In this document: positions 644 to 18,359 of the stretch, piece after piece | Numbering within the stretch: the stretch's first letter is position 1 | How the letters are laid out: the number at the start of each line of letters is the position of its first letter | Virus record (IMG/VR): IMGVR_UViG_3300028191_000010 | Location: 1-21,844 of that record | Direction: 5' to 3' (one strand) | DNA length: 21,844 nt | DNA from: a virus | The notes under the pieces: generated by a model | The model's input: only the letters and a program-made list of their open reading frames with translations | Database searches by the model: none | Told to the model about the DNA's origin: nothing | Translations under genes and position numbers: made by a program

Positions 644-1045
644 ATGCCATACAAAAATATAGAAGATAGGAAAAAGAATGCTAAAAAATATTATCAATTA
701 CATAAAGAGCAAGAAAAGAGGAGAGTGAAGAAGTATAAACAATCTCCAGAAGGGAAGGCAGTCAAAAAGGAAATAGATAGAAGATATCATCGATCTTCTA
801 AGGGGAAAGAAATGAAGAGAAAGGGGAATGCAAAACGAAGGCAATTTGGTTTTATCCCTCTCAATAAACCTTTTGAAGGAGCAGAAGGACATCATATAGA
901 TTCCCAAAGAATTATCTATATTCCTGAGGGGATACATCGTAGTGTATGGCATAGCATTACTTCAGGTGTTGGGATGGACAAGATTAATAAATTAGCACTT
1001 GAGTATTATGATAGGCAAGTAAAAATAAAGGTCGAATCAAATTAA
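644..1045 (+). CDS. HNH-like endonuclease
   Basis: A 133-residue protein. The first 65 residues are highly basic (RKKNAKKYY, RRVKKYK, KGKEMKRK). The C-terminal part carries the His-Me finger-like signature E-G-H-H-I-D at 81-86, then IIYIPEGIHRSVWH (91-103) and GVGMDKINKLALEYY. This matches a recurrent small phage and archaeal HNH-like family in which HH...H...H supply the catalytic and metal ligands. I start at 644 because it follows an A/T leader and begins ATGCC. The in-frame ATG at 596 lies inside the leader hairpin and would add an unlikely N-terminus. The 3' end contains one GGTCGA motif. Likely role: nicking or cleaving DNA in recombination, homing or packaging. Confidence 0.7.
   Translation: MPYKNIEDRKKNAKKYYQLHKEQEKRRVKKYKQSPEGKAVKKEIDRRYHRSSKGKEMKRKGNAKRRQFGFIPLNKPFEGAEGHHIDSQRIIYIPEGIHRSVWHSITSGVGMDKINKLALEYYDRQVKIKVESN
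1030..1035 (+). promoter_or_regulatory. GGTCGA motif before the KH gene
   Basis: AAAGGTCGA lies inside the last codons of the HNH gene (frame AAG GTC GAA), 29 nt before the ATG at 1065. The stretch between is almost purely A/T. Member of the eight-copy set described in the findings. Confidence 0.5.
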
Positions 1046-1064
1046 CAAATAAAAAGATAAAAAA

Positions 1065-1376
1065 ATGGACAAAGAAGGAATACAAGAATTATTAGAATCA
1101 ATTCTCAAAGCAATGGTTGAAAAGCCAGAAGACGTAAAAGTGACACAGACAGTGGACGATATGGGAGTATTACTATCAGTTGAATTAGGAGAGGGAGATG
1201 CAGGATTAGTGATTGGAAGAGGTGGCAAAACCATCAACGCCATTAGACTAATCATTAACGCAATTGGAATGCAGAATAAAGCTAAGATAAATATAAAGCT
1301 CCTAGTTCCTGAAATGCCAAGAGAAGGGCGTGAGAGGATACCATACGGGAAGAGGAAATTTGATACAGAAATATAA
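1065..1376 (+). CDS. KhpA-like KH-domain RNA-binding protein
   Basis: A 103-residue protein. Residues 5-30 (IQELLESILKAMVEKPEDVKVTQ) match the KhpA/YlqC start. The KH signature follows as LVIGRGGKTINAIRLIINAIG, with the GxxG loop G51-R-G-G54 that contacts RNA, then strand INIKLLVPE. A basic 20-residue tail makes it longer than the usual KhpA of about 76-80 residues. Cellular KhpA binds single-stranded RNA, usually with KhpB, and affects envelope growth and sRNA function. The phrase V-D-D/E-M-G-V-L-L just before the KH core is, from memory, characteristic of Patescibacteria KH proteins. That suggests a gene taken from the host and gives the best host clue here. A KH protein next to RNA-like leader elements may be meaningful, but that link is inference. 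Confidence 0.85.
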   Translation: MDKEGIQELLESILKAMVEKPEDVKVTQTVDDMGVLLSVELGEGDAGLVIGRGGKTINAIRLIINAIGMQNKAKINIKLLVPEMPREGRERIPYGKRKFDTEI

Positions 1377-1381
1377 GGGAG

Positions 1382-1669
1382 ATGAACAAGAGCGAAACAA
1401 TTGCATATAATGAGTTGAAAAGAGAGGGATATTTGGTAGAGAAGCCAAGACGAAGTCAATGGCAACCTCAGGATTTCTTTTATGCTTGGGATTTTATTGC
1501 CTTAAGTAGTAAACATATTAGATTTATCCAGGTCTCATCTAAATATCTCTCTCAGCGCTCAAGAGAAGATCAGAAACGAATGAGAGAATTTCCAAATCCT
1601 CCAAATACTCAAAAGGAATATTGGAGGTGGAAAGCAAAAGACAAAACATTTATCAAAGAAATTTTATGA
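1382..1669 (+). CDS. PDDEXK-like small nuclease (tentative)
   Basis: A 95-residue protein. E5 in the first helix, then QDFFYAWDFIAL (D37) and RFIQVSSK (49-54) give an E...D...QVxxK layout like small VRR-NUC or Holliday-resolvase-type PDDEXK folds. The C-terminus has FPNPPNTQKEYWRWK, a segment I associate with phage proteins of this type. The canonical (E/Q)xK is not exact, because Q50 is followed by V-S, so activity is uncertain. GGGAG directly abuts the start, too close for a normal Shine-Dalgarno. The stop overlaps the next start as ATGA (1666-1669), so the pair is translationally coupled. Confidence 0.55.
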   Translation: MNKSETIAYNELKREGYLVEKPRRSQWQPQDFFYAWDFIALSSKHIRFIQVSSKYLSQRSREDQKRMREFPNPPNTQKEYWRWKAKDKTFIKEIL

Positions 1670-1914
1670 ATTATTATTTAATATCATTAGCAGAAGCATT
1701 TGTGGATCTATATACTAGGATACAAAAACAAATTGCCGAAACGATGTGGACGATTGAAAGAATTAAACCAATGAGTCAAAAGGAAGTAGAAAAGTTTCAG
1801 GGGAAGACAGTTAAAAAGAAATTATTGATGGAGGATCTTCAGAAAGAATTAGAAGAGAGGAAGGGAAATTTAAAAGTCGTCTTAAAATTAATAAATGAAT
1901 ATGATACCAAATAG
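1666..1914 (+). CDS. Small coiled-coil phage protein, unknown function
   Basis: An 82-residue protein. I choose the ATG at 1666 because it overlaps the previous stop as ATGA. An upstream in-frame ATG at 1621 would overlap the nuclease-like gene by 49 nt. The sequence is mostly helical and charged: LAEAFVDLYTRIQKQIAETMWTIERI, then KKLLMEDLQKELEERKGNLKVVLKLI. This is consistent with a two-helix coiled coil. There is no recognisable catalytic motif. It overlaps the next gene by 20 nt. Confidence 0.6.
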   Translation: MNYYLISLAEAFVDLYTRIQKQIAETMWTIERIKPMSQKEVEKFQGKTVKKKLLMEDLQKELEERKGNLKVVLKLINEYDTK

Positions 1915-2218: not shown

Positions 2219-2226
2219 AAAATAAT

Positions 2227-2424: not shown

Positions 2425-2442
2425 TTTAATTTTCTTTATTAG

Positions 2443-2673
2443 ATGAATAAGAAACAAATCAAACAAAAGATACAGATGGAGAGAGGAGCATTTGAAAATG
2501 AAAGGAGAAAAAACTTTCTTCATCTGAAAAATACAGGGAAATACGATAGTCATTTTATGCAGAGGATAAAAAAGATGGCAAAGGTCGATTCAATTGTTAG
2601 GCATTTGAATTGGTATCAGAGGATTTATATTTTTATAAGATTAATGTTAAAAAGATTATGGAGGAGAAAATAA
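2443..2673 (+). CDS. Small basic protein, unknown function
   Basis: A 76-residue protein, strongly basic (KKQIKQKIQMERGAF, RIKKMAK), ending in a hydrophobic-then-basic stretch YQRIYIFIRLMLKRLWRRK. That tail could be a short amphipathic or membrane-associating helix. No family is recognised. Its end overlaps the start of the next gene by 16 nt. The codons for KVDSI (2582-2594) share a 14-nt identity with the end of the tail-fibre gene near 18340, which also contains GGTCGA. Confidence 0.5.
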   Translation: MNKKQIKQKIQMERGAFENERRKNFLHLKNTGKYDSHFMQRIKKMAKVDSIVRHLNWYQRIYIFIRLMLKRLWRRK

Positions 2674-3995
2674 AAATAGTAAGAGTTAAAATAGATCAAT
2701 TAAAGGATGCAGAATATAATCCTCGTGTTGCTACCGATAAAGAGAAGGAGGATCTAAAAGAATCATTAAAGAAGTTTGGGTTTGTAGAACCGATCGTAGT
2801 TAATTCTGCGCCGGGAAGAAAAGATGTTATAATAGGAGGACATTTTAGAGTTAGGGTAGCAAAGGAGATGGGGATAGAAGAAGTCCCGGTGGTCTATATT
2901 AATATTTCAGATTTAGAAAAGGAAAAGGAATTAAACTTAAGATTAAATAAAAACTTAGGGCAGTGGGACTTAGGATTGTTAAAAAACTTTGATGAGGATT
3001 TTTTAAAGAACGTGGGATTTGAAGATGAGGAATTGGATCATATCTTTGGACTAGAGATGGCAGAGGAATTTGATGAAGAGAAAGAATTAGCAAAAGCAAT
3101 AAAAGATCCAAGAGGAATAAAGACAGGAGATATTTGGAAATTAGGAGAGCATAGATTAATCATTGGAGATTGTACTAAGCGGGAGGTTTGGGAGAAATTA
3201 TTAGGAGAAGAAAGATTTGATTTTATGTTCACAGATCCTCCATATCGATTAGCATATTGTAAAAAGAGAACGAGGAAAGTTAAAACAAAAGAAGGATTCA
3301 AAACTAAAAGGGAAAGGGAATATCAAAGTGTAGGAGAAACTGATAAGAAAGGAAAGCCAAAAGGATTTGGTGCAAAGCAGGATAGAATTTACGATGGGAT
3401 AATGATTAGGGGCGTGCCAGAATATAATGTATGGTTGTCGATAGCAAATGAATTTCAGAATCCAATTGGAGCGAATGTAATGGTATTTGAAAACTGGAAG
3501 AATATTCATGATCTATGGGAGGCAATAGAAAAGTATTGGAAGATTAAAAATATAATCATTTGGCATCTACCAAATAGAAGACAAGGATTTGCAGCAAGAC
3601 ATCAATTCTTTTCAAAGTTTGATATGGCGCCGTTAGCTGATAAAGGAAAAGCACCAATGAATGAACAGCCTGAGGTAGAGCTTGAGGAATATCTAAAAGA
3701 GAAAGGTCAGAAATTATTAGATACATATGAAATAATAATTTATGGAAAGAAAGAAAAGAGTGAGTGGAATAGAAAGAGTCGTTATTTTAAAGGAAGTAAA
3801 TGGGGAGAAGTTTCGGATCACATAACATGGACCGCAAGTTCGGAAGCATCGACAGGACAAAACTTAGTGTTCGGTACAAAGCCAGTGCAGATATTAATTC
3901 CATATGTTAAAATATTAAGTCAAAGAGGAGGAGCAGAAGTGATTCTGAATAGGTTTGAGAGATTCACAGGAATTAAGGCAATAAAACTCAATTGA
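2658..3995 (+). CDS. ParB-domain/DNA methyltransferase fusion lacking SAM motif I
   Basis: A 445-residue protein. Residues 5-95 form a ParB/sulfiredoxin-like domain (QLKDAEYNPR, FGFVEPIVVN, IIGGHFRVRVAKEMG). After a linker, GDIWKLGEHRLIIGDCT (157-173) and TDPPY (192-196) mark a beta-class N4-cytosine/N6-adenine DNA methyltransferase, with DPPY as catalytic motif IV. Near the C-terminus GTKPVQILIPYVKILS is motif X. The expected DPFxGxG SAM-binding motif I and the following ExD strand should come next. Instead the text jumps from SQRGG to AEVILNRFERFTG, the usual last helix, so about 35 residues appear missing in frame near 3930-3936. The enzyme may be inactive or a DNA-binding relic. I start at 2658 (MEEKIKIV), where ParB homology begins. 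ParB-MTase fusions next to terminase genes are common in phages. Confidence 0.85.
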   Translation: MEEKIKIVRVKIDQLKDAEYNPRVATDKEKEDLKESLKKFGFVEPIVVNSAPGRKDVIIGGHFRVRVAKEMGIEEVPVVYINISDLEKEKELNLRLNKNLGQWDLGLLKNFDEDFLKNVGFEDEELDHIFGLEMAEEFDEEKELAKAIKDPRGIKTGDIWKLGEHRLIIGDCTKREVWEKLLGEERFDFMFTDPPYRLAYCKKRTRKVKTKEGFKTKREREYQSVGETDKKGKPKGFGAKQDRIYDGIMIRGVPEYNVWLSIANEFQNPIGANVMVFENWKNIHDLWEAIEKYWKIKNIIIWHLPNRRQGFAARHQFFSKFDMAPLADKGKAPMNEQPEVELEEYLKEKGQKLLDTYEIIIYGKKEKSEWNRKSRYFKGSKWGEVSDHITWTASSEASTGQNLVFGTKPVQILIPYVKILSQRGGAEVILNRFERFTGIKAIKLN

Positions 3996-4063: not shown

Positions 4064-4522
4064 ATGATAAAAGAACCGAGAAAAACCGTTAAGAAACCGA
4101 TAAAAAGAGATAAAGGGGGGAAGTTTGTAGATGGGACAGCACCAGGGCCAGGGAGAACCCAAGGCTCTTTAGATTTTAATACTATCTTCGAGGAAGCGGT
4201 TAAAAAAGTAGCGGGTAAACTTAATATTAAACCAGAAAATGTTGATGTTGAAGTTCTAACGAAAGGAATTGCTTTAGCATTAGGAGGAAGTTATAATTTC
4301 TGGAAGGAGATACTAGAAAGGAGATATGGAAAAGTTAAAGAAGTACTGGAAGTGTCAGAAGTAATAAAAGACGAGCAAGGGATAGATGTCGATCCAGCAT
4401 TAAAAAAAGCAATTAAAGTTTATGAAGACGAACTTAAAAAACAAGAATATAGAAAAGAAGATGATAGCAAACAGCGTCTACGTGTGGATAAAAAAGAAAA
4501 GGATAAGAAACGAAAAAAATGA
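4064..4522 (+). CDS. terS: Terminase small subunit-like protein (TerS)
   Basis: A 152-residue protein directly upstream of TerL. The N-terminus has KGGKFVDGTAPGPGRTQGSLDFNTIFEEAVKKVA, the GxF..G..pGPGR.kGS pattern of DUF5681-like phage proteins that occupy the TerS position. The central helices (ILERRYGKVKEVLEV) resemble the oligomerisation and DNA-binding part. The C-terminus is a highly charged Lys/Glu tail. TerS recognises the phage genome and feeds it to TerL. The last 101 nt overlap the TerL frame. The gene ends CGA-AAA-AAA-TGA, a run of seven A at 4513-4519. The gap at 3996-4063 has no gene and no strong fold. Confidence 0.65.
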   Translation: MIKEPRKTVKKPIKRDKGGKFVDGTAPGPGRTQGSLDFNTIFEEAVKKVAGKLNIKPENVDVEVLTKGIALALGGSYNFWKEILERRYGKVKEVLEVSEVIKDEQGIDVDPALKKAIKVYEDELKKQEYRKEDDSKQRLRVDKKEKDKKRKK

Positions 4523-5984
4523 ACTGATTGAATTTACTCATCATCGGTTTTTATTAGATATTTATACTGATGATAGTAAAGAGATTGTGGTAAGAAAAGG
4601 AGCGCAGAGCGGAGGAACTACATGGGCTATTTTAAGTGAGATACATGATGCAATGTATTTAGGAATAAACCAGATACATACGATGCCAACAGTTTCGGAT
4701 GTTCAGAAGCTGGTGCCAAGCAAAGTGAATCAGATGATTAAGATGAATCCTTGTATTAGAGAAACGATGAATAAGGGAGATGTCGATGCAGTAACTCAGA
4801 AACAGATAGGCAAATCGTTTCTTTATTTTAGAGGAACATTTATGGAGAGGGAAGCGATAATGTTAACGAGTGATAAGAATTTCTATGATGAGGTAGACAA
4901 AAGCAACCAACAAGTAATTAAAGATTATTCATCACGACTCGGATATTCTAAACTAGGAAGAAAAATATATATTAGCACGCCGACAGTTCCCGATTTCGGA
5001 ATTGATAAATTATGGAATAATTCAGATCAAAAGTATTGGAGGTTTAATTGTCCTCATTGTGGATTTGAGCAACATATGGAATGGGAAAAGAACGTTGATT
5101 TTGATAGAGAAATATATGTTTGTCAGAAATGCCGCAAAGAATTAATCCCGGAAACAATTCAGGGAGGTGAATGGAAGGCGAGATATCCGGGTAGAGAAAT
5201 ATCTGGATATTGGATATCTCAAATGATGGTGACATGGAGGACGGCAAAAGATTTAATTAAAGAACAAGAAGATGCTGAAGACGAACAATACTTTTATAAT
5301 TTCATTTTAGGGTTGCCCTATCTTAATCCAGAAGACAGAATATCAGCGGGATTAATTTTAAAGAATTTAACAAATGAAAAAAGTAATGAAAGAGATTCGG
5401 CAATGGGAGTAGATGTTGGAGGAAAAGATTTGCATGTGATCGTTGGAAATAATAAAGGAATATTTGGAATAGCAATATTAAAAGATGAGCCGGGAAAAAC
5501 GAAGTGGCAAAGATTAGGAGAATTGATGGAAGTTTATGAAGTGCAGTATTGTGTAATCGATGGAATGTGGAATACAAACGAAGCCTATGAGTTCGCCGAA
5601 AAGTTTCCTTATAAAGTTTATTTGAATTGGTATAAGGAGGATCCAAAAAAAGTTAGGATTGTTAGATTTGCAGATGAAACAAAATTTACTGACAAGCCAG
5701 AGGATTTTGAAGAAGAGATAAAAGTATTATCTGATCGGAATAGAATTATTGATGCGCTGATTAGTGAATTAAGAAAAGGAAAATATAAATTCAATTTTCT
5801 ATCAGGCGATGATCGGATAACAGAATTAATAGAACACGTGCAAACAATGTATGCTCGTACCGTTACTGACAAGGTTGGTCAGGAAAGAAGAGAATGGGTG
5901 AGTACGACGAAGAGGGACCACTTGTTGCATGCATTAGTTTATTATAAAATAGCTTATGATAGAAAGATAAAAGATGAAAAATAG
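4422..5984 (+). CDS. terL: Terminase large subunit (GpA-type)
   Basis: A 520-residue protein, the ATPase-nuclease motor that packages DNA through the portal. From the ATG at 4422: the segment NELIEFTHHRFLLDIYTDDSKEI leads into a Walker A-like loop RKGAQSGGTTWA (58-69, a variant lacking the usual lysine). Walker B-like FYDEVD is at 154-159. GpA-type zinc cysteines are C210-PH-C213 and C234-QK-C237. RNase H-like nuclease acidic residues are MGVDVGG (D331), CVIDGM (D380) and KRDHLLHALVYYK (D499). The start at 4422 follows AATTAAAG like other genes here; 4461 is the alternative. The conserved N-terminus (VYVWIKKKRI) lies inside the TerS overlap, so TerL is translated from an overlapping start and does not need a frameshift. 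Confidence 0.9.
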   Translation: MKTNLKNKNIEKKMIANSVYVWIKKKRIRNEKNELIEFTHHRFLLDIYTDDSKEIVVRKGAQSGGTTWAILSEIHDAMYLGINQIHTMPTVSDVQKLVPSKVNQMIKMNPCIRETMNKGDVDAVTQKQIGKSFLYFRGTFMEREAIMLTSDKNFYDEVDKSNQQVIKDYSSRLGYSKLGRKIYISTPTVPDFGIDKLWNNSDQKYWRFNCPHCGFEQHMEWEKNVDFDREIYVCQKCRKELIPETIQGGEWKARYPGREISGYWISQMMVTWRTAKDLIKEQEDAEDEQYFYNFILGLPYLNPEDRISAGLILKNLTNEKSNERDSAMGVDVGGKDLHVIVGNNKGIFGIAILKDEPGKTKWQRLGELMEVYEVQYCVIDGMWNTNEAYEFAEKFPYKVYLNWYKEDPKKVRIVRFADETKFTDKPEDFEEEIKVLSDRNRIIDALISELRKGKYKFNFLSGDDRITELIEHVQTMYARTVTDKVGQERREWVSTTKRDHLLHALVYYKIAYDRKIKDEK

Positions 5985-6132: not shown

Positions 6133-8064
6133 ATGCCAGAACAAAAAGACGAAGAAATAAAACAAGAAGAAAAAGAAGAAAAACAAACAGGGCTTGCAGG
6201 GATGAGTGATGAAGATAGAAAAGAAATTGTAGAAAAGTGGAATAAAAGATTTAAGAAATCGAAAGATTTTATAACTCCATATAGAGAGAAATGGTTGAGA
6301 ATGTATAAACTTTATCGTGCGTATAGGGATGAATCAAAATATGCATATCAAACAAATCTGTTACCACCAATTGCTTTTGAAGTAGTGGAAACAGTTAAGC
6401 CAAGATTGTCGGCCGCAAAAATTAATGTGAGAATTATACCTCGAGAGAAAAATGATATTAATTCAGAGTCATTAAATGCGTGGGATGATTTAATTAAATA
6501 TGATTTTGATGTGACAACATTCTCGGACACTAAAATAGATTGGATTAATTCAACATTACAATTTGGTGATGGAATACTTGGATTAGTTTGGAAAAATAGC
6601 AAAGATGAAAAGAATGATGGTGATCCGTTTATGTGGGTTCAGGATCTTTGGTTATTCTTCCCAGATCCAGAGGCAACCGATCTTCAGAAAGATAGTAGAT
6701 ATGAAATAATCTTATCTTATAAAACGAAGAGTGAGTTAGAGAAAGAGGAAAGTGAAAGAGGAGAATCAAAAATCTATTTGAACTTAGAAAATGTTTCAGA
6801 TAAAATGATTACGGATGATCCTCGGAAAGAGAGATATTCAATTAATACAAAAAAGATGGGACAGATCGCAACGGGAAAAGCAGGAGAGGGAACGGAAACG
6901 GATGATAAAATGGCGGACGTTAAAAAGTTAGAACTTTTACAAATATGGGATCATGAATACGATAGACTTATAGTAATTGCGAATCAGACTGAATTAATTA
7001 GATATGAAGATAATCCATATAAACCTATAAATAAAGGGAGAATATTTATTCAATTATCAGATCATTCAGTTCTTTGGGATTTGTGGTCAATCGGACATAT
7101 CGAACCAATAGAAACAACAATTAATGAATTAGCAGATTCAAGAAATCAGGCGATGGATGATATTGTATTTACGCTTGATCCGATTAGAAAAGTAAGGAAG
7201 GATTCTCATATTAAGGCCGATGATATTGTTTACGCGCCGGGGGCAGTGTGGGAATTAAAAAGAGCGGATGATGTGGTAACAGAAAGACCACCAGAAGTTA
7301 GTAGAGAGTGGATAGCAAAAGATGAAATATTAAGAAAAGAAATTCAATCTTCTCTGGCCATTTCAGAATATGCTATGGGAATGCCACAGGGGAAACAGGA
7401 GGCAATGGGAAAGGTACAATTATTATTAATGCAAACCAATATTAGATTTAGTGTATTGGTTAGGCAATTAGAAACAGCGATCACAAAATTGGTAAATAAT
7501 TTAATTGAATTAAATCAGGAGTTTTTGACAGAAGAGAAAAGCTATAGATTAGTTGGTAAAGAAGTAGCGTTTAAGGATTTTAAAGACGAAGATAAAAAAG
7601 TTATAGTGGATGCAATCGTGGACATCGAACCACAGGTTGAAAAGACACCGGACCAGAGAAAGGATGAAATATTCATGTTATATAAAATATTTATAGCGGA
7701 GGATAAACCAGATGCAAATGATTTGAATGAAGTTGAGCGATGGAAAGTTAGGAAAAAAGTTTTACAGAAGATGATATTAGAAGCATGCGATAAGGAGCAA
7801 TATGAAGAATTAATATTGGGATTGGAGGATCAGAAGGAAAAAGTGGAGGAAAAGGTGGTTGAACCTGCTCCTATACCATCAGCAGTGCAACCAGGAGGGG
7901 TACCAGTCGTGCCCCAAGGACAAACTCAACCAATAGCACTAATACCACGAATGGGGGGGCAAGGTGAGGCAGTTCCACAATCTCCGCCAGGCGAAGCATT
8001 AGGAGCAAAAATTCCTTTTTTAAAACGTATTATAAATAAGATAAAAGGTCGAGCAACTAAGTAA
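6133..8064 (+). CDS. Portal protein
   Basis: A 643-residue protein. The portal forms the dodecameric ring at one head vertex through which DNA enters and leaves. It has the expected length and place after TerL. The acidic N-terminus is followed by KWNKRFKKSKDFITPYREKWLRMYKLYRA and TNLLPPIAFEVVETVKPRLSAA, typical of podovirus-like portals, then the beta-rich wing (LWLFFPDPEATD, WDHEYDRLIVIA) and stem helices (GHIEPIETTINELADSRNQAMDDI; SSLAISEYAMGMPQGKQEAMGKVQLLLMQTN). Residues from about 570 are a low-complexity Pro/Gln/Gly tail (VQPGGVP is shared with the protein at 18598) ending in a basic FLKRIINKIKGRATK. The 3' end holds a GGTCGA motif. Confidence 0.85.
   Translation: MPEQKDEEIKQEEKEEKQTGLAGMSDEDRKEIVEKWNKRFKKSKDFITPYREKWLRMYKLYRAYRDESKYAYQTNLLPPIAFEVVETVKPRLSAAKINVRIIPREKNDINSESLNAWDDLIKYDFDVTTFSDTKIDWINSTLQFGDGILGLVWKNSKDEKNDGDPFMWVQDLWLFFPDPEATDLQKDSRYEIILSYKTKSELEKEESERGESKIYLNLENVSDKMITDDPRKERYSINTKKMGQIATGKAGEGTETDDKMADVKKLELLQIWDHEYDRLIVIANQTELIRYEDNPYKPINKGRIFIQLSDHSVLWDLWSIGHIEPIETTINELADSRNQAMDDIVFTLDPIRKVRKDSHIKADDIVYAPGAVWELKRADDVVTERPPEVSREWIAKDEILRKEIQSSLAISEYAMGMPQGKQEAMGKVQLLLMQTNIRFSVLVRQLETAITKLVNNLIELNQEFLTEEKSYRLVGKEVAFKDFKDEDKKVIVDAIVDIEPQVEKTPDQRKDEIFMLYKIFIAEDKPDANDLNEVERWKVRKKVLQKMILEACDKEQYEELILGLEDQKEKVEEKVVEPAPIPSAVQPGGVPVVPQGQTQPIALIPRMGGQGEAVPQSPPGEALGAKIPFLKRIINKIKGRATK
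8047..8052 (+). promoter_or_regulatory. GGTCGA motif at the portal 3' end
   Basis: Read as AAA GGT CGA within the portal's last codons, a different frame from the copies at 1030 and 18341. It lies 23 nt before the ATG at 8076. Confidence 0.5.
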
Positions 8065-8510: not shown

Positions 8511-8512
8511 AA

Positions 8513-8518
8513 GGTCGA
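8513..8518 (+). promoter_or_regulatory. GGTCGA motif, intergenic
   Basis: TAAAAGGTCGA begins at the stop codon of the preceding gene. It lies 26 nt before the ATG at 8545, followed by only A, T and isolated G or C. Confidence 0.5.
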
Positions 8519-8880: not shown

Positions 8881-8882
8881 TA

Positions 8883-8888
8883 GGTCGA
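8883..8888 (+). promoter_or_regulatory. GGTCGA motif, intergenic
   Basis: TAATAGGTCGA starts at the stop codon of the gene before it. It is 21 nt ahead of the ATG at 8910, with an AATTAAATCAATTAAAG tract between. Confidence 0.5.
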
Positions 8889-9478: not shown

Positions 9479-9691
9479 ATGCCCTATGGAGTAAAAGGTA
9501 AAACTAAGGAGTGGGAGGAAGGAACTAAGACTGGCCAGAAAGTAGATGCCAGGATTGAAGGATGTGTTAGCAAATTATTAGCTGATCCAGATTTCAAACC
9601 TCAACAAGGAAGAACTAAAAAAGCTTCGGCTATTGCGGTTTGCAAATCTTCTATTACAAAATCAGATGAATTTAGAAAGCAGTTAAGCTAA
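9479..9691 (+). CDS. Small conserved phage protein with LLADPDFKPQQGRTKKASA motif
   Basis: A 70-residue protein. The core E-G-C-V-S-K-L-L-A-D-P-D-F-K-P-Q-Q-G-R-T-K-K-A-S-A-I-A-V-C-K resembles, from memory, a recurring module in phage structural clusters (C-x(n)-DPxFKPxxGRTKxxSAxAxC) that occurs alone or inside larger head proteins. Two cysteines, at about 29 and 55, are conserved in that module. Function is not established, and in this position it may be an assembly or maturation cofactor. No Shine-Dalgarno; the leader is AAAATAAAAATT. Confidence 0.55.
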   Translation: MPYGVKGKTKEWEEGTKTGQKVDARIEGCVSKLLADPDFKPQQGRTKKASAIAVCKSSITKSDEFRKQLS

Positions 9692-9692
9692 A

Positions 9693-9698
9693 GGTCGA
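9693..9698 (+). promoter_or_regulatory. GGTCGA motif before the scaffold gene
   Basis: CTAAAGGTCGA begins at the stop codon at 9689-9691. It lies 28 nt before the ATG at 9727, with a spacer made only of A and T apart from one G and one C. Confidence 0.5.
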
Positions 9699-10611: not shown

Positions 10612-10741
10612 ATAGTAAACTTGGGGGAGGAAAGCACCCCCGACCGAATAAGCCCATTCTGGACAACTTATCGATAATCTAAATTGCCCCTGGGAGAATA
10701 GTCGACCTCTCTGAAAAAAGTAAAATCAAATTATATAGATT
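10612..10741 (+). promoter_or_regulatory. Structured GC-rich leader of the capsid gene
   Basis: A 130-nt gap, clearly richer in G and C than the genes around it. TTGGGGG (10621-10627) pairs with CCCCCGA (10637-10643) around a 9-nt purine-rich loop. AATAAG...CTTAT (10647-10652, 10667-10671) and GGAGA/TCTCT (10693-10697, 10708-10712) are further possible stems, and ATTCT (10656-10660) can reach AGAAT (10695-10699). GTCGACC at 10701-10707 is an inverted GGTCGA. I find no good sigma70 promoter. Probably an mRNA leader that tunes or stabilises capsid expression. Confidence 0.5.
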
Positions 10742-11905
10742 ATGCCCGTAACAGGAATGCGAGGCACAGCCTCGTTAATACAGAGAAAGTATGACATGGA
10801 AAATGTCATAAGTTTGTTAGATGTAAATCGATATCCGTTGTTAGCAATCTTGACAAATGCGGGAAAGGACCCAGTGACTAAAGCAGGTAAAGCTATCAAA
10901 AAGAAAGAAACCACTGATCCAGAGTTCAAATGGAATGAGGATACTTTTGGAACAAGGAATTTAACAGGAGAAGGAACAGTTGATCCAGATGGTGGAGCTC
11001 TTACGCTTGCCACTCCAGGTGGATCTGCATGTCAGGTTGGAGATGTTGTTTTGGTAGCTCTTCAAAAGTGGGTGTTTGAGGTCACAGTATTAGTTAGTGC
11101 GACTGAAGTAACAGTAGGAGCAGAAAAAGGAGGAGCAACAGGAGCAGCCGCTTCAGCAGTAGGAGATGTTTGGATTATTGGTAATGTAAATCAAGAAGGA
11201 GCAGGATTAAGGTCTATCATGGCAACTACTCCAAGTGAAAAGGTTGGTTATTGTCAGATTTTTAGAACTCCATTTGGGATTACTGAAACTGCTAAGAACA
11301 CACAAACTTTGATAGAGGAAAATGATTTTGATTATCAGAGAAAGAAAAAAGCGATCGAACATATGGTTGATATTGAAAGAGCATTTATCTTTAGCAAGAA
11401 ATCCAAAGATACTAGTGGGACACATGTAAAGAGATTTACTGAAGGAATATTTAGCTTGATTACTACTTACGCAACTGCAAATGTTGATACCGAAGCAGAA
11501 TTTGAGACTTGGTTAGAAAGCGCTTTTGCGCATGGTAATGTTGAGAAATATTTATTTGCTTCAGCAAAGGTAGTTTCGATGATTAACGGTTGGGCAAAAG
11601 GAAAGCTCGAAGTTTTGTCAAAAGATAAAACTTATGGATTGACAATTACCAGATACGAATCTCCACACGGAACAGTCAATATTATTAAGCATCCTTTATT
11701 GACTGGTACTATCTTCGGATATTACGCTGTCATGCTTGATATGGAGTGTTTGACTTATCGATATTTGAGCAACAGAGATACGAAACTTTTGACTAATCGA
11801 CAAGCACCAGGAGATGATGTAAGAGTAGATGAATATCTTTCAGAAGTAGGACTTCAAATGAAGTTCAATAGCAGACACGCAGAAATGAGCATGAGTGATC
11901 TCTAA
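10742..11905 (+). CDS. Major capsid protein, SU10-type (DUF5309)
   Basis: A 387-residue protein with the HK97-type capsid fold as found in the SU10/DUF5309 (PF17236) family. Evidence is the long-helix segment GYCQIFRTPFGITETAKNTQTLIEENDFDYQRKKKAIEHMVDIERAFIFSKKS (about 170-222). Also matching are FTEGIFSLITTY, a P-domain-like YLFASAKVVSMINGWAK, and the C-terminal strands HPLLTGTIFGYYAVMLDMECLTYRYL and RVDEYLSEVGLQMKFNSRHA. An inserted beta/Ala-Gly-rich stretch at about 75-150 (VGDVVLVALQKWVFEVTVLVSATEVTVGAEKGG) is probably a surface domain. It follows the scaffold gene. There is no obvious cleaved delta domain, consistent with a separate scaffold. Confidence 0.88.
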   Translation: MPVTGMRGTASLIQRKYDMENVISLLDVNRYPLLAILTNAGKDPVTKAGKAIKKKETTDPEFKWNEDTFGTRNLTGEGTVDPDGGALTLATPGGSACQVGDVVLVALQKWVFEVTVLVSATEVTVGAEKGGATGAAASAVGDVWIIGNVNQEGAGLRSIMATTPSEKVGYCQIFRTPFGITETAKNTQTLIEENDFDYQRKKKAIEHMVDIERAFIFSKKSKDTSGTHVKRFTEGIFSLITTYATANVDTEAEFETWLESAFAHGNVEKYLFASAKVVSMINGWAKGKLEVLSKDKTYGLTITRYESPHGTVNIIKHPLLTGTIFGYYAVMLDMECLTYRYLSNRDTKLLTNRQAPGDDVRVDEYLSEVGLQMKFNSRHAEMSMSDL

Positions 11906-11981: not shown

Positions 11982-11985
11982 TAAA

Positions 11986-11991
11986 GGTCGA
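11986..11991 (+). promoter_or_regulatory. GGTCGA motif after the pseudoknot
   Basis: TTAAAGGTCGA, 33 nt before the ATG at 12025. This is the longest spacer in the set (AAATTAAATTAAATAAG and similar). Confidence 0.5.
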
Positions 11992-12429: not shown

Positions 12430-12442
12430 AGGTAGGTTTTTT
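12413..12442 (+). terminator. Intrinsic terminator overlapping the stop codon
   Basis: AAAAACCTGC (12413-12422) pairs with GTAGGTTTTT (12432-12441) as ten pairs with one G-U, around TTTTTAGAG. The A-run before and T-run after make it terminator-like in both directions. The TAG stop (12427-12429) is in the loop. It would end or reduce transcription after the head genes. Confidence 0.7.
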
Positions 12443-12444
12443 AA

Positions 12445-12460
12445 TGGCGCAAAGACGCCA
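12445..12460 (+). promoter_or_regulatory. Short perfect hairpin abutting a GGTCGA motif
   Basis: TGGCG (12445-12449) pairs with CGCCA (12456-12460) over loop CAAAGA. GGTCGA starts at the very next base. Perhaps an RNA-processing or 5'-stabilising element. Confidence 0.45.
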
Positions 12461-12466
12461 GGTCGA
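12461..12466 (+). promoter_or_regulatory. GGTCGA motif after hairpin
   Basis: CCAGGTCGA, 20 nt before the ATG at 12487. It is the shortest spacer in the set (AAATTAACCAATTAATTAAA). Confidence 0.5.
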
Positions 12467-12676: not shown

Positions 12677-13225
12677 ATGTTTAAATTTATTGCTAATTCA
12701 ACAAATCTTAATGGAAAAGCGAGAGTGTCAATGAAAGTTTTTCGGGCAAAGACGGGAAAATGGGAAGGATTAGGATTGTGGTGGAATATAAAGCAGTTCT
12801 TTAGAGAGGCAGGAATACAACTCCTAAATATCATTACATTCAAGTCGGATAAAAAGTGGGGATATGCGACTGTTTTAACGCAAGCGGGGGAAGAATTTAT
12901 TGTAGATAAATTAGATGAGACGGTTCAAACAACGGGTGATTATATTGGTTGGGGAACTGGCGCTGGAACTGCGGCTAAGGAAGATACTATTCTTTTTACT
13001 GAAGCAGCTGAAACAAGGGTAACAGGCACAAGAACCCAACCAGTAGCAGATAAAATCAGATGGGTAGGGACTTTAACTTGTAATGCTACTCCTAAAACCA
13101 TTACCAATGCTGGAAACTTAACTGCTACCACTGCTGGAACTTTAATTGTTCACGGTGATTTTACAGGAGTGGCTTTGGCTGCTGGAGACAAAATTGAGTT
13201 CACGATTGATATTGAAATAACCTAA
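12677..13225 (+). CDS. Virion structural protein, probable tail or neck component
   Basis: A 182-residue protein. I start at 12677 (MFKFIANSTN) just after the previous stop; an ATG at 12629 would overlap that gene by 44 nt. The first 70 residues include NGKARVSMKVFRAKTGKWEGLGLWWNI. The rest is a beta domain with the string YIGWGTGAGTAAKEDTILFTEAAETRVTGTRTQP (about 89-122), then IRWVGTLTCNAT..TITNAG and AAGDKIEFTIDIEIT. This GWGTGaGtaakeDTtLfTEa pattern recurs in phage and prophage structural genes near tail modules, which supports a virion role without giving a precise one. It is followed by a terminator-like hairpin. Confidence 0.55.
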   Translation: MFKFIANSTNLNGKARVSMKVFRAKTGKWEGLGLWWNIKQFFREAGIQLLNIITFKSDKKWGYATVLTQAGEEFIVDKLDETVQTTGDYIGWGTGAGTAAKEDTILFTEAAETRVTGTRTQPVADKIRWVGTLTCNATPKTITNAGNLTATTAGTLIVHGDFTGVALAAGDKIEFTIDIEIT

Positions 13226-13226
13226 T

Positions 13227-13277
13227 AATCTAATCCGCAGATGAAACCAGTTTGAAAATGTGCGGGTTAGATTTTAA
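13227..13277 (+). terminator. Terminator-like hairpin before the DNRLRE gene
   Basis: AATCTAATCCGCA (13227-13239) pairs with TGCGGGTTAGATT (13261-13273): 13 pairs with one G-U and a 21-nt loop. TTAATTT follows. It begins 2 nt after the stop at 13223-13225, and the next ATG is only 14 nt past the stem. It could equally be an mRNA leader or 3'-stabilising fold, because the U-tract is weak. Confidence 0.5.
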
Positions 13278-13287
13278 TTTATAAGTT

Positions 13288-14976
13288 ATGGAATATCTTG
13301 GTCAAGATTATCTTAAAAAACGCATAAGGGATAATCAGAAGTTTTTATTAAGACTTCTTCATCTTCATATTGGAAATTATTATCCTTTGAGAAAATGGTT
13401 AGGGATTGATTATAAGGAAAAAATTGATGACATAACCCATTTATCATTTGGCTTTAACACAAAACATTTTCCGATGCAACAATCCCGCACTTATCAGCAC
13501 CCAGACTTAGGATACAAGCTCAATTTAGTTTTAGACAAGATACCACAATTAGCCTTACTCCCAGCTCTTTTACAACCTGCTTATGGATTAGGAGCTTTGG
13601 CATTTTTCTTTTTGACAACTACTACTTATCAGCCATCTACAAAGGATACTTATTTAGATGTAGGTGCTCCTAATACAAACTATGGAAATGATACTGGATT
13701 GATAATTTTGGTAACAAGTTATGCTCGTCAAAAGAATATTCTGCTTCACTTTGATACTTCTGACATTCCAAATGGTGCTATATTTTCTCAAGGAGATGTT
13801 GGTTTATATATGTATTCTTGGAATGGTCAGACTTTCCCATTTTTCTTAAATCGTCTGACTCAAACTGCTTGGGTAGAAACTCAAGCTACTTGGAATATTT
13901 ATTCAACTGGAAATAATTGGGCTTCTGCTGGGGGTGATTATACTGAAACTAATAGAGGAACATCCCCGACTCTTTCAACGCCTCCGTTATGGATAACTAT
14001 ATCCGCCTGTCAACTTATTCAAGATTGTTATAATAATCAGTCTAAACACGTTCATATTTTAGGATGTGGAAATACGGCTAATCTAACACAAGCTCGTTAT
14101 TTCTATTCCCGTGAATATGCTGACACCTCTCTCAGACCCAAACTAACAGTTACTTATACAGTTCCTACTACATATTATAAAACTCTTGCTGCTACTGAAG
14201 TATCAAGTATTGATTTATCTAAAATTGCATCTTTCTATAAAATCTTAGCCGTAGTAGAAAGCAGTGTTATAAATTTTAAGAAAGGATTTTCCAAAACATT
14301 AGCAGTCATAGAAACGAGTATTGCGAGCTTGAAAAAAGGATTGTTTAAATCTTTAAATGTGATAGAAGTAAGCATTCCTTATTTGTTAGCACAGAAAGTT
14401 TTGGGGAAATTATTATCAGTAGTAGAAAACTCTATTATTGCTCTTTCAAAACTTTCAAAAAAAATCCTATCAGTCATAGTCACAACAATTCCAGTTATTT
14501 CTTTGTTCAAATCTTTCTATCGGACTTTATTGGTGATAGAAAGTAGTGGTGTTAGTTTAATAAAAGGAATGTTTAAAAGCGTTGCAGTTTCGGCAGTAGC
14601 GATTAGTGCTGTAAGTTTAGTAAAAACATTTTATAGAACATTAGCCACGACAGAGATTTCAATTCCAAGTTTAAGTAAAATATTCAGTTATTTTAGAAGT
14701 TTGCCAGTAGTAGAAAATAGCATTGCGGTTTTATCAAAAATCTCTTCAATTTTCAAAACATTATCAGTGACGGAAATCTCGGTAGCCACTATGTCTTGGA
14801 CCAGAAAGATTCCTTTGTTAGCAACTGCTATATCCATTTCTACAATTTCAAGACTGAAGACATTTTATAGAACATTAGTGGCAACGGTGATAACGATAGT
14901 CAAATTAAAAGTGCCAACGCATTACTGGGATAAATTTACTCAACAAAACGATGATTACCACGATAAATATAATTAA
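13288..14976 (+). CDS. DNRLRE-domain host-contact protein with ~13 tandem repeats
   Basis: A 562-residue protein. Residues 1-105 are a helical region with a hydrophobic stretch (LALLPALLQPAYGLGALAFFFL, about 88-109). Residues 113-292 form a DNRLRE/CBM96-like beta domain: DTYLDVGAPNTNYGNDTGLIIL, NILLHFDTSDIPNGAIF, AWVETQATWNIY, ADTSLRPKLTVTY. Such domains occur in surface-attached and carbohydrate-binding proteins. Residues 296-540 are about 13 repeats of 18-20 residues (FYRTLxVxExSIxxLSK). The end WDKFTQQNDDYHDKYN is a YxDKY-type cap. It is less purine-rich than its neighbours in the DNRLRE part, hinting at separate origin. Most likely a tail-associated adhesin or receptor-binding protein, though the place before the adaptor gene is unusual for one. 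Confidence 0.65.
   Translation: MEYLGQDYLKKRIRDNQKFLLRLLHLHIGNYYPLRKWLGIDYKEKIDDITHLSFGFNTKHFPMQQSRTYQHPDLGYKLNLVLDKIPQLALLPALLQPAYGLGALAFFFLTTTTYQPSTKDTYLDVGAPNTNYGNDTGLIILVTSYARQKNILLHFDTSDIPNGAIFSQGDVGLYMYSWNGQTFPFFLNRLTQTAWVETQATWNIYSTGNNWASAGGDYTETNRGTSPTLSTPPLWITISACQLIQDCYNNQSKHVHILGCGNTANLTQARYFYSREYADTSLRPKLTVTYTVPTTYYKTLAATEVSSIDLSKIASFYKILAVVESSVINFKKGFSKTLAVIETSIASLKKGLFKSLNVIEVSIPYLLAQKVLGKLLSVVENSIIALSKLSKKILSVIVTTIPVISLFKSFYRTLLVIESSGVSLIKGMFKSVAVSAVAISAVSLVKTFYRTLATTEISIPSLSKIFSYFRSLPVVENSIAVLSKISSIFKTLSVTEISVATMSWTRKIPLLATAISISTISRLKTFYRTLVATVITIVKLKVPTHYWDKFTQQNDDYHDKYN
14173..14907 (+). repeat. Tandem coding repeats, ~57-60 nt units
   Basis: About 13 diverged units encode the consensus F-Y-(K/R)-T-L-x-V-x-E-x-S-I-x-x-L-S-K-x. 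Most copies have drifted, but ACATTTTATAGAACATTAG occurs exactly twice (near 14628 and 14870). This points to past duplication or exchange between units. The repeats are rich in Ser, Ile, Leu, Val and Thr, with a lysine or arginine near each unit border. Confidence 0.8.
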
Positions 14977-14991
14977 ACTAAATAAAAACCT

Positions 14992-15657
14992 ATGAAACTT
15001 ACAGAATTTTTAACAGCTCTTAATGATAGAATAGCCGCCGCAAAGGTGAGCGGATTTTGGACCACCGCGCAGAAAGAACAATGGATTTATGAAGCGATAG
15101 TAAGGGTTTGTAGTTTTAGGAGATGGAAAGGATTAGAATTAGCAAGATCCACTGCGACAAAGATAGATCAAGAATATTATGATTACCCTGATAATTTAAG
15201 TATAGACAGTATTTATTATATGGAAGTAGATGGGGGAAAATATATAAAGAAAAGTTGGAGTGAGTATCAAGCACTTAAAGCAAACGAAAGTACTGATCAG
15301 ATATTTACATCACACAATGGATTTTATTTTATTAATCCAATTCCTTCTGAGGCAGGATTAACCATAGATATTTGGGGGATTAAAAAGCCAGTGGAATTAG
15401 TAGAATGGAAGGCTGCTGCAGATGATTCAATACTTTCAGAGAAGTTTGATCAATCAGTAATCAAATTAGCTTTAGCATCCTGTCTACAAAAGACAGGAAA
15501 ATACAACGAAGCATCAGCTGAGATAGCAGAGGTGGAAGCATCAAGGAATCCTATGGTCGAAGGATCCGGAGGATTGTTGGCTAAACTAGCCGACAGTGAA
15601 GAAGATGAAGAGCCGAAAGGATATATAGGTAGAGCTATAAGCACAAGATTTTCATAA
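14992..15657 (+). CDS. Head-tail adaptor protein (SU10-like)
   Basis: A 221-residue protein. The start MKLTEFLTALNDRIAAAKVSGFWTTAQKEQWIYEAIVRVCSFRRWKGLE matches the helical N-terminus of podovirus-like adaptor/gp6-type connectors, which bind under the portal. A small beta part follows (YYDYPDNLSIDSIYYMEVDGGKYIKKSWSEYQAL; NGFYFINPIPSEAGLTIDIWGIKKPVEL). Then come the paired helices typical of the family (SEKFDQSVIKLALASCLQKTGKYNEASAEIAEVEA). The acidic tail ends GYIGRAISTRFS. This is consistent with the SU10-type capsid. It ends one nt before the next start. Confidence 0.7.
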   Translation: MKLTEFLTALNDRIAAAKVSGFWTTAQKEQWIYEAIVRVCSFRRWKGLELARSTATKIDQEYYDYPDNLSIDSIYYMEVDGGKYIKKSWSEYQALKANESTDQIFTSHNGFYFINPIPSEAGLTIDIWGIKKPVELVEWKAAADDSILSEKFDQSVIKLALASCLQKTGKYNEASAEIAEVEASRNPMVEGSGGLLAKLADSEEDEEPKGYIGRAISTRFS

Positions 15658-15658: not shown

Positions 15659-17044
15659 ATGGCAGAATTAAATTCTTATACAATTAATAACTTTGCAGGA
15701 GGATTATCAGATGAGGAGAAACGAGGAGTACCTGGTAGTTTTAGGAATGGATTTAATTTAGATATCCATAGGAAAGGAGTAAATATATTATCCTGTAACC
15801 AGAAGCTAAAAAAGATTAGTGTGAGTGTAGTGGTAGATTTGATTATTAAGATTATTCCAGTTAGCGCTACAACATCTTATGGATTTGGGAATGCCGGGAA
15901 TGTTTATAAGATAGTTACCGAGACAGTCACCAAGATTTATACCGATCCTAATGGAGCGATTTTAGATGCAGATTATTTTTATGGGTATCTTTACTGGACC
16001 ACAGCCACAAAATTGGGTAGATGTATTGAAACTTCTGCCAACTGGACCGCTGATGCAGCGCCAAGCTGGAAGGCACTAAATTCTTCAAGTTATCATCCAA
16101 TATTTGTTGTTCCTAAAAGCGATTTAATGAGTATTGGAAATGGAAGATATATAGCAAATTTAAGTGCTACAGAAGTATGGAATGACGAAGCATTAGATTT
16201 ATTCTATGGTTGGGAAGTAAGATGCTTGACATTAAAAAAACCAAAGCTTCTAATCGGGGCGAAAGATAGTAAAAAAGCGGAATTATTTGATTGGGATTTA
16301 ATCTCTGAATCTTATGATCCAATAGAGGGATGGGAGGAAAGAGATATTATTGCATTTTTAAAAGCAATAGGGACAACTTATATATTTACACCAACATTGA
16401 TTTATTGGTTTAGTGAAGGATTGGTAGACGTGGCAAAAGAATTGCCGTCAGAAATAAAGCAAGGGGCCATAGATATCTGGAAAGGGAAAGTATTATTTGG
16501 GGCGACAAACGGAGTTTATTCTTATCATAAGAAGAACAAGAATTATCCGTTGGCACTTAATCTTGAATATACACCATCACCGATCACTATTGCCAATTTT
16601 GATTCAAAAAGTATAGAGATCGGAGCAATTTTGGGAAGCGGAGATAATCTTTATGTAGCATGGAAAGATGGAGCGACTTATGGATTGGACAATATTGATT
16701 CAAGTAATAAAGCTGAAGCGGTCTATGAGGGATTATCGTTTGATGCTCAGAATCCATTTGTAGATAAGTTATTTAGATTTATTAAAATTGTGACGAATCC
16801 TTTACCTGAAGATTGCTCAGTAAAAGTTAAATACAGAATGAATGGAGGATCAGAATGGATAGAAACTAAAATGGCAGAAGGTGATGCGGAATCATTTACA
16901 GATGTGGGAGAAACAAAGGCAATATTTCAGATAGAAGGGCAGGGGGAAATTTACGAAGTTAGGATAGAATTATATCCAAAAGTGAACACTACACCAGAGA
17001 TTCTATCAATTAATTCTTATTTCTCGGGAGATAATATTTATTAA
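15659..17044 (+). CDS. Probable tail nozzle/beta-propeller tail protein
   Basis: A 461-residue protein. The opening NSYTINNFAGGLSDEEKRGVPGSFRNGFNLDIHRKGVNILSCNQKLKK is a pattern I associate with phage tail proteins (f.gGls.....g..gsf.n..nlDi). Repeated four-stranded blades seem to follow (YIFTPTLIYWFSEGLVDV, GKVLFGATNGVYSYH, DNLYVAWKDGATYGLD), suggesting a beta-propeller. The C-terminus (CSVKVKYRMNGGSEWIETKM...YEVRIELYPKVNTTPEILSI) is a beta-sandwich. In SU10-like phages the nozzle after the adaptor is propeller-like, so that is the best guess. Spacing is tight: TAATATG at the start and TTAAAATG at the end. Confidence 0.6.
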   Translation: MAELNSYTINNFAGGLSDEEKRGVPGSFRNGFNLDIHRKGVNILSCNQKLKKISVSVVVDLIIKIIPVSATTSYGFGNAGNVYKIVTETVTKIYTDPNGAILDADYFYGYLYWTTATKLGRCIETSANWTADAAPSWKALNSSSYHPIFVVPKSDLMSIGNGRYIANLSATEVWNDEALDLFYGWEVRCLTLKKPKLLIGAKDSKKAELFDWDLISESYDPIEGWEERDIIAFLKAIGTTYIFTPTLIYWFSEGLVDVAKELPSEIKQGAIDIWKGKVLFGATNGVYSYHKKNKNYPLALNLEYTPSPITIANFDSKSIEIGAILGSGDNLYVAWKDGATYGLDNIDSSNKAEAVYEGLSFDAQNPFVDKLFRFIKIVTNPLPEDCSVKVKYRMNGGSEWIETKMAEGDAESFTDVGETKAIFQIEGQGEIYEVRIELYPKVNTTPEILSINSYFSGDNIY

Positions 17045-17045
17045 A

Positions 17046-18359
17046 ATGCCACAAGAACAAACATTAATTGAGGATGATAAAATAAAGATTTTCTATAATC
17101 AGGAGATGGAGGATTTACCATTTCCTGAGAAGCAGGGTTATAGTTTTTTGGTAGAGAAGCCGACAAGTTTGGAAGATATTAATAAGGCAGAAGGAACAAA
17201 ATTAGGAAATGCATTAGATAAAACAGTTGATACTTCTGATGATTTGTCACAAGGAGCAACGAATAAATATTTGTTAGATTTAGCGGTAACCGAATTAAAA
17301 TTAGCCACAGGAGCGGTGACAAATGCGAAGATAGCGGTTAATGCAATTCAAGGGGATGTAATAGCGGCAGGAGCCATCACAGAAACTAAGATAGGAACTA
17401 ATGCCATTTCATCGGGAAAGATAGCGGCTGGAGCGATTATAGCGGGGAAAATAGCAGCAGGTGTGATCACAGCAACAGAAATAGCGGCAGGAGCAATAAC
17501 TAGTACAAAGATTTATGCAGGAGCAGTAACTTCAGATAAAATTACTGTTTCTCAGTTATCGGCCATCTCGGCAAATATTGGAGAAGTAACAGCTGGAAAA
17601 ATAACAGGATTAACAATAAGGACAGCTGCATCAGGACAAAGAATAGCTTTAGAAGGAGCAGGAGGTGAACTAGGATTTCCCCACGAAATTCTTGTATATC
17701 CAGCTTCTGGAAATCCATTGGAAATTTTTGGTGGGGCGGACGCTTTTTATGTCAAAGCAAATTTAGCAGTAAAACCGATATCTTTTGAAAACTTATCCGG
17801 ATATGGAGCTTTTCAGATAAATGAAATATCAGTTAGGTCGAGAGATGTCCTTCCGTATTCAACAGGGGAAGATTTGGGAGGGAGTGCATCTGCTAATAGG
17901 TGGGCAAATGTTTATGCGATTGCTGGTAATTTTAGTGGAAATGTGACAGTAGGTGGATATGTTTATTCAACAAATATCCTTCGTTCAGATACATCTGTCT
18001 TAGCGCCAGCATTTTCTGCTTATGGAGGAGGGAAAGCAAATTTTACTGGAAATTTTACAGCTTGCCCATTACCTATTTCAATAAGTTCAGCACTCGAAAA
18101 AATTGGTAATCCAAAACCTACTCCATATGAAAAATTAAAAGATAAAAGATTTGCTGAAAGAGATATCGATAGAAAGGATATGGGCATTGAAAGAATGTAT
18201 TATGATATTAAACAGGTTCCGAAAGAATGCCGATTTATTAATTCTAAAGGTAAAGATGATATAGAAATATCAAGAACGGTTGGTTTTTTGTATCAGTGTG
18301 TCGTTGAATTAAATAATAAAATGAAATCTTTTGAGCAAAAGGTCGATTCAATAAAATAA
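17046..18359 (+). CDS. Tail fibre with decapeptide repeats and degenerate chaperone-like end
   Basis: A 437-residue protein. The N-terminus (about 1-80) likely anchors to the tail. Residues 81-190 are eleven 10-residue repeats (ITxxKIAAGA), typical of trimeric fibre shafts. ISANIGEVTAGKITGLTI follows, then a beta region and NRWANVYAIAGNFSGNVTVGGYVYS, usually found just before intramolecular chaperone (peptidase S74) domains. The C-terminus (YEKLKDKRFAERDIDRKDMGIERMYYDIKQ...RTVGFLYQCVVELNNKMKSFEQKVDSI) ends with the VxELNxKxxxxE helix of S74-type chaperones. However, it lacks the clear S-D-x-R-x-K-x-x-I start, so cleavage is doubtful. Role: host recognition. Confidence 0.75.
   Translation: MPQEQTLIEDDKIKIFYNQEMEDLPFPEKQGYSFLVEKPTSLEDINKAEGTKLGNALDKTVDTSDDLSQGATNKYLLDLAVTELKLATGAVTNAKIAVNAIQGDVIAAGAITETKIGTNAISSGKIAAGAIIAGKIAAGVITATEIAAGAITSTKIYAGAVTSDKITVSQLSAISANIGEVTAGKITGLTIRTAASGQRIALEGAGGELGFPHEILVYPASGNPLEIFGGADAFYVKANLAVKPISFENLSGYGAFQINEISVRSRDVLPYSTGEDLGGSASANRWANVYAIAGNFSGNVTVGGYVYSTNILRSDTSVLAPAFSAYGGGKANFTGNFTACPLPISISSALEKIGNPKPTPYEKLKDKRFAERDIDRKDMGIERMYYDIKQVPKECRFINSKGKDDIEISRTVGFLYQCVVELNNKMKSFEQKVDSIK
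17286..17615 (+). repeat. Eleven 30-nt coding repeats in the tail-fibre shaft
   Basis: Units of exactly 10 codons, consensus (I/V)-T-x-x-K-I-A-A-G-A. At DNA level ATAGCGGCAGGAGC recurs (near 17360 and 17481) with close variants. The first and last two units are the most diverged. Confidence 0.75.
18341..18346 (+). promoter_or_regulatory. GGTCGA motif at the fibre 3' end
   Basis: Read as AAG GTC GAT inside the fibre gene's last codons, 22 nt before the ATG at 18369. AAGGTCGATTCAAT also occurs at 2581-2594. Confidence 0.5.

Follow-up and report, generated by a model that had tools for sequence, protein, structure and literature searches.

How ribosomes find the start codons of genes that lack a Shine–Dalgarno (SD) sequence is poorly understood in bacteria, and especially so in Patescibacteria, of which few species are cultured. 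The question is raised by IMGVR_UViG_3300028191_000010, a linear virus contig from a tailed phage, analysed here over its whole length of 21,844 bases (the window), in which the motif GGTCGA recurs a short distance upstream of eight start codons. An earlier note, made from the letters of the sequence, had described this repeat and named as options a translation enhancer for SD-less genes, an RNA-processing site, a protein-binding site (perhaps for the phage KH protein) and a phage-specific promoter element. The analysis presented below argues that the motif is very probably an RNA leader element for the translation of SD-less genes, common to host and phages, and it points, with less assurance, to the apical loop of helix 26 in 16S ribosomal RNA (rRNA) as its partner.

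Copies of the motif in the window

GGTCGA is present 12 times on the plus strand and once on the minus strand, in every case where the earlier note had placed it, and the eight distances to the next ATG given there (29, 23, 26, 21, 28, 33, 20 and 22 nucleotides, nt) are exact. The total of 13 on both strands compares with a mean of 2.8 and a maximum of 9 in 100 shuffles. Eight copies lie at −50 to −13 of the 29 gene starts, against a mean of 0.14 and a maximum of 2 in 300 dinucleotide shuffles, so that the real starts clearly exceed shuffled sequence, the comparison that the note had proposed; random placement gives a mean of 0.54 and a maximum of 5 (5000 trials). The hexamer AGGTCG is found nine times in the same interval, the ninth copy (Table 1) being a weaker one missing from the earlier list. 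The bias towards the coding strand also holds, with AAGGTCGA occurring seven times forward and never in reverse. Three copies (1028, 8045 and 18339) lie inside the end of the upstream gene, as had been reported. Such copies within coding sequence would be expected if the motif were a product of chance or coding bias, that is, a common AT-rich gene-end sequence, an explanation refuted by the shuffles, the placement tests, the strand bias and the independent genomes described below, and thus of negligible probability.

Distribution among phages and hosts

The same orientation is seen in related and other phages. Forward-to-reverse counts of AAGGTCGA are 4:0, 8:0, 6:0, 7:1, 7:0 and 6:0 in L008, L009, L012, L015, L018 and L020, and 8:0, 10:0, 8:0, 9:0 and 6:0 in L029, L030, L048, L049 and L050; the motif is rare or missing in the relatives L014, L016, L019, L025, L026 and L034. 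The L029 contig is labelled Anaerolineaceae, yet it carries a phage of this Patescibacteria type and is probably misbinned. In L012, L015, L018 and L020 the motif stands upstream of the corresponding genes around the capsid gene; it is thus kept before orthologous genes in relatives, where the earlier note had suggested looking for its absence. Pooled motif-bearing phages contain 38 AGGTCG at −50 to −16 against 1.33 expected; in the pool of motif-less phages (from, or like, phages of hosts with a short helix 26 loop, see below) no AAGGTCG leaders are found, SD hexamers dominate and GGAGGTG occurs 18 times against 0.28 expected, a contrast that is a description and not an independent test, both pools having been picked with the motif counts in view. 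The leader is also shared by phage contigs in which no similarity to the window phage was recognised, L361 (7 of 16 genes) and L376 (6 of 27), both from a scan of viral contigs for the motif itself in which, among the matches listed, most are single chance matches. One motif copy in L361 has TTGACA-N17-TAAAAT immediately on its 5′ side.

The leader is found on host genes too. Scanning 13 host genomes for the pattern turned up AAGGTCGA, followed by an AT-rich spacer, upstream of genes for HU, KhpA, small membrane or secreted proteins and a DUF5679 protein, among others. When the roughly 3640 hexamers at −50 to −16 are ranked, AGGTCG comes first in G012 (13 against 1.13 expected), G026 (9 against 0.5) and G046 (9 against 0.88), and its reverse complement has a count of 0 in each; the samples were 300–400 kb long for G012 and G026 and 240 kb long for G046, with open reading frames (ORFs) taken by a simple longest-ORF rule without a gene finder. 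AGGTCG is not enriched in that interval in the samples of G015, G017 and G022. In the class of G012, the leaders of 26 HU genes could be read: about half of them have AAAGGTCG ahead of the start, most of those that lack the motif at its usual distance have GGAGGTG or a similar sequence, and some have neither. The AAGGTCG leader precedes KhpA genes of both phage and host (window, 1065–1376; L124, +11990; L246 and L250). In G012 (L203–L222), a second sequence, AATCGCCAAG, is likewise enriched at −50 to −16 of host genes. The idea of an element specific to one phage lineage was ruled out, because hosts have copies too, as have phages that show no recognised similarity.

A probable RNA element distinct from the Shine–Dalgarno sequence

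The level at which the motif acts was approached through promoter boxes and spacing. TATAAT-like boxes are present at most 40 nt upstream of 31 of the 47 host motif copies (mean 18.2 and maximum 27 in 500 shuffles), whereas −10-like boxes downstream show no excess (26 of 47; shuffle mean 24.9), and around 68 phage copies TATAAT-like boxes are in excess on neither side. The earlier statement that the motif has no matching −10 is thereby borne out. Because the boxes are in excess upstream and not downstream, the host motif most probably lies in the transcript near its 5′ end, in the 5′ untranslated region (5′ UTR); the phage motif most probably lies inside polycistronic messages.

These observations bear on the promoter option. 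A DNA element (−35-like or a whole promoter, read by an unusual sigma factor or a phage RNA polymerase) that gives leaderless or short-leader transcripts would fit the motif–ATG distance, which suits a −35 element of a leaderless mRNA, and it would also fit the motif copies found close behind terminator-like U tracts in L015, L018 and L020, where transcription might restart. The −10 box at a fixed distance downstream that defines a sigma-70-type promoter is not seen, however, ordinary TATAAT boxes lie upstream in host genes, and the presence of the motif in unrelated phages, in hosts and in a conserved hairpin loop points to RNA. The promoter reading was rejected on the missing −10 box and is given a very low probability; its phage-specific form is further disfavoured by the motif in host genes and by phage copies within gene clusters and in the hairpin loop. 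A similarly low probability attaches to RNA processing, whereby an endonuclease would cut polycistronic phage mRNA at the motif and leave short A-rich leaders. Copies do occur between or at the ends of clustered genes, some just past terminator-like or hairpin sequence, but host copies stand near the expected 5′ end with their own −10 boxes upstream, where a cut would change little, and both the constrained motif–ATG spacing and the alternation of the motif with SD sequences speak against a cleavage site.

That spacing, from motif end to ATG, is nearly the same in hosts (26.8 ± 5.5 nt) and phages (27.1 ± 4.8 nt), with a spacer that is about half A and 7–9% G. It supports the earlier judgement that the motif is too far upstream for an SD sequence (about 27 ± 5 nt as compared with 5–9 nt). 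No gene has both an SD and the motif (0 of 10 host and 0 of 32 phage genes); under a looser definition, an SD-like tetramer is found in three of the 47 host spacers and two of the 68 phage spacers. With the 16S 3′ end, the predicted duplex AAAGGUCGA/AUCACCUCCUUU reaches −4.2 as against −16.9 for the full SD. An SD variant was ruled out by this weak pairing and by the wrong spacing. Among the options listed at the outset, the translation enhancer for SD-less genes is therefore favoured, given action at the RNA level, the 5′ UTR position, the lack of an SD and the occurrence in hosts and unrelated phages.

Complementarity with the apical loop of helix 26

A candidate partner for such a leader is found in 16S rRNA. 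The tip of helix 26 is an eight-base loop, UAUCGACC or UGUCGACC (U[A/G]UCGACC), on stems that are variable but paired. UCGACC, which lies in this apical loop, is exactly complementary to GGUCGA. The predicted duplex GGUCGA/UCGACC has an energy of −8.6 kcal/mol, compared with −6.6 for AAGGAG with the anti-SD. One or the other loop is present in G019, G022, G023 and G024 and in almost all 16S genes that could be read in the class of G012, and one has AUUCGACC; G012 itself, the genome holding phage L020, has UGUCGACC. A first look had assigned the 16S match to helix 27, an assignment discarded when alignment and folding put it in the helix 26 loop. Where the mRNA leaves the subunit, helix 26 borders the chamber that houses the SD duplex (PMC4611024).

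The distribution of loops can be set beside that of leaders. Short helix 26 loops without UCGACC are found in G015, G016, G017 and G018; G015 and G017 were examined for leaders and the motif is not enriched in them. Matches to the motif–spacer–ATG pattern number 14 in five phages of loop-positive genomes (L020, L027, L030, L031 and L032) versus 2 in four phages of short-loop genomes (L023, L024, L025 and L026), a comparison in which the assignment of phages to hosts rests on binning. The variant AGGTCGG, which would retain pairing through a G–U wobble, is enriched in hosts and phages.

The mechanism proposed is as follows. The motif would be a cis-acting RNA element of 5′ UTRs and intercistronic leaders that recruits the ribosome to genes without an SD. 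GGUCGA would pair with UCGACC in the apical loop of host helix 26, which sits next to the mRNA exit on the platform of the 30S subunit. This duplex would tether the subunit, and the spacer of about 27 nt, rich in A and poor in G, would allow the start codon to get to the P site. The interaction would thus be SD-like, but with another rRNA target and a longer spacing, and would be used by phages ahead of virion genes and by the host ahead of some of its own genes, such as those of HU and KhpA. Position, strand, spacing and conservation of the motif, its location downstream of host −10 boxes, the lack of an SD and the exact complementarity are direct observations; pairing with helix 26 and its effect on translation are reasonably probable and make the best mechanism at hand.

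Several observations weigh against pairing. In a screen of 145 Patescibacteria genomes, 95 of which gave a complete 16S match, the UCGACC loop is not associated with the strict host motif pattern (found in 6 of the 40 genomes with the loop and in 8 of the 55 that lack it, P = 0.59), a screen of little power, as outside the class of G012 the strict pattern is about as frequent as its reversed control. Because of this result, the loop is at best necessary for use of the motif and not sufficient. G022 has the loop, yet the contig examined gives no sign of genome-wide enrichment, in contrast to the G022 phage. As to variants, enrichment extends to AGGTCAA, with one pair lost, but not to AGGTTGA, which would keep the pair as a wobble. 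Knowledge of the motif preceded the discovery of the loop match, and a six-base complement anywhere in the 16S gene is expected about 1 time in 3, so that the notable point is its place in this particular loop (about 3 in 4096). Finally, the variation of the loop is not of a kind that permits a covariation test of the pairing.

The capsid-gene hairpin and a possible protein site

The inverted copy reported by the earlier note deserves separate treatment. Minus-strand GGTCGA is indeed present at 10702–10707, but the locus is better read as forward AGTCGA (10700–10705) in the loop of a hairpin that precedes the major capsid gene (Table 1). A hairpin occupies the same position in six relatives (L011, L012, L015, L017, L018 and L020), with forward GTCGA in its loop and stems that differ (GAGAAG/CTTCTC, GAGAG/CTCTC and GGGAG/CTCCC); the paired base changes in these stems were judged by eye, without a formal covariation count. 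A palindromic protein site was ruled out, as the inverted copy belongs to this shared hairpin with the forward sequence in its loop.

A motif exposed in a loop resembles many protein sites, and the motif might instead be a single-stranded RNA site for a protein (KhpA or another KH protein, an S1-like protein or some other RNA-binding factor) whose role would be to bring in the ribosome or to shield the mRNA, the helix 26 match being coincidental. The tolerance of variants at positions 5–6, which departs from strict pairing, would agree with this, as would the motif ahead of phage and host KhpA genes themselves, as an autoregulated gene might have it. Yet relatives without the motif also have KhpA, none was found in the records of the motif-rich G007 and G010 (maybe incomplete), and a protein site by itself leaves the absence of the motif in the short-loop G015 and G017 unexplained. 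Such a site is unlikely, and a KH protein as the sole reader of the motif was discarded, since KhpA presence does not track the motif. The suggestion of a binding site for the phage KH protein is thus weakened.

Features of the window and host of the phage

The features of the window are collected in Table 1. Matches to its capsid protein, at 53–79% identity, are found in genomes labelled Woesebacteria, Daviesbacteria, Gottesmanbacteria, Shapirobacteria, Doudnabacteria and further Patescibacteria, and because these capsid relatives sit in Patescibacteria-labelled genomes, the host of the window phage is almost certainly a member of Patescibacteria, as judged from sequence. TerL as a query gave zero relatives in the genome collection and, among named phages, distant ones only. 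The GC skew, +0.1 to +0.47 elsewhere, is about 0 at 13001–15000, over the CBM96 gene, which perhaps was recently acquired. A GGTAGGTTTTTT tract and a GGCG..CGCC repeat lie upstream of a motif copy at 12430–12466, and terminator-like U tracts (GGGCTTTTTATT and similar) end at most about 10 nt from the motif in L015 (11809), L018 (11819) and L020 (6204).

Table 1. Motif copies, hairpin and genes in the window
Feature	Position	Strand	Remarks
AGGTCGT	569..575	+	weaker ninth AGGTCG copy; 20 nt upstream of ORF at 596
AAGGTCGA	1028..1035	+	precedes KhpA-type KH gene; within end of upstream ORF
KhpA-type KH protein	1065-1376		
ParB-N protein	2667-3995		
GpA-type terminase	4422-5984		
SU10-like portal	6133-8064		
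AAGGTCGA	8045..8052	+	precedes gene 8076 (first after portal); within end of portal ORF
AAGGTCGA	8511..8518	+	precedes gene 8545
AGGTCGA	8882..8888	+	precedes gene 8910
AAGGTCGA	9691..9698	+	precedes gene 9727 (probably scaffold, by position only), immediately 5′ of capsid gene
Hairpin GGGAG-(AATAGTCGAC)-CTCTC	10692..10711	+	AGTCGA exposed in loop; precedes major capsid gene
Major capsid protein (SU10_MCP)	10742..11905	+	anchor gene for search of relatives
AAGGTCGA	11984..11991	+	precedes gene 12025, first after capsid gene
AGGTCGA	12460..12466	+	adjoins 3′ side of GGCG..CGCC inverted repeat; precedes gene 12487
CBM96 protein	13288-14976		
Tail-fibre-like protein	17046-18359		
AAGGTCGA	18339..18346	+	precedes gene 18369; within end of tail-fibre-like ORF

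Relation to known systems

Like the SD sequence, the motif is a short purine-rich mRNA sequence on the 5′ side of the start, and its pairing partner would be 16S rRNA at the platform of the 30S subunit. It differs in its target, the helix 26 apical loop instead of the 16S 3′ end, and in its spacing, and no gene in the sets counted has both. Another short repeat ahead of many phage genes, in other phages with another host, is the start-associated sequence of cluster K mycobacteriophages, which is longer, close to the start and SD-related.

Closer parallels in target are eukaryotic. The 18S counterpart of helix 26 pairs with motif 1 of the termination upstream ribosomal binding site (TURBS) of caliciviruses and influenza B (PMC5972666), and with the hepatitis C virus (HCV) internal ribosome entry site (IRES) and the Gtx element (PMC6316650). 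TURBS motif 1 is, like GGUCGA, a viral mRNA motif on the 5′ side of the start, complementary to the helix 26 apical loop near the mRNA exit and sometimes located where the upstream gene ends, or in a hairpin loop. TURBS is eukaryotic, bound to termination–reinitiation and has the sequence UGGGA, whereas the motif described here is bacterial and also precedes single host genes that have a promoter to themselves. The majority of copies lie in leaders between genes or of single genes, in hosts downstream of −10 boxes, and not at the overlapping genes where TURBS proper supports reinitiation. The complementarity to the helix 26 apical loop that characterises TURBS and Gtx is present (GGUCGA with UCGACC). 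In the HCV IRES (GGG of subdomain IIId) and in Gtx, pairing between mRNA and helix 26 recruits the small subunit, as proposed here, but these are eukaryotic and consist of a large structured IRES or a nine-base element. The literature searched, with partial coverage, yielded no bacterial interaction between helix 26 and mRNA and, in line with the earlier note, which knew of no such motif, no described bacterial motif of this kind.

Implications

On balance, though by a narrow judgement, Patescibacteria of this class and their phages may have a second rRNA-guided mode of start-site recognition in bacteria, in which leaders pair with the helix 26 loop and replace the SD. If the pairing is true, a AAAGGTCGA leader without an SD is predicted to gain expression with the helix 26 loop UAUCGACC. 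The motif would then be the bacterial equivalent of the helix 26 elements known from eukaryotic viruses, and a helix 26 partner would join bacterial initiation to the RNA contacts that eukaryotic viruses make with this helix. It would also allow better gene calls in Patescibacteria and their phages and may aid in linking phages to hosts. A specific rRNA partner at the mRNA exit would supply a mechanism for SD-less initiation in Patescibacteria.

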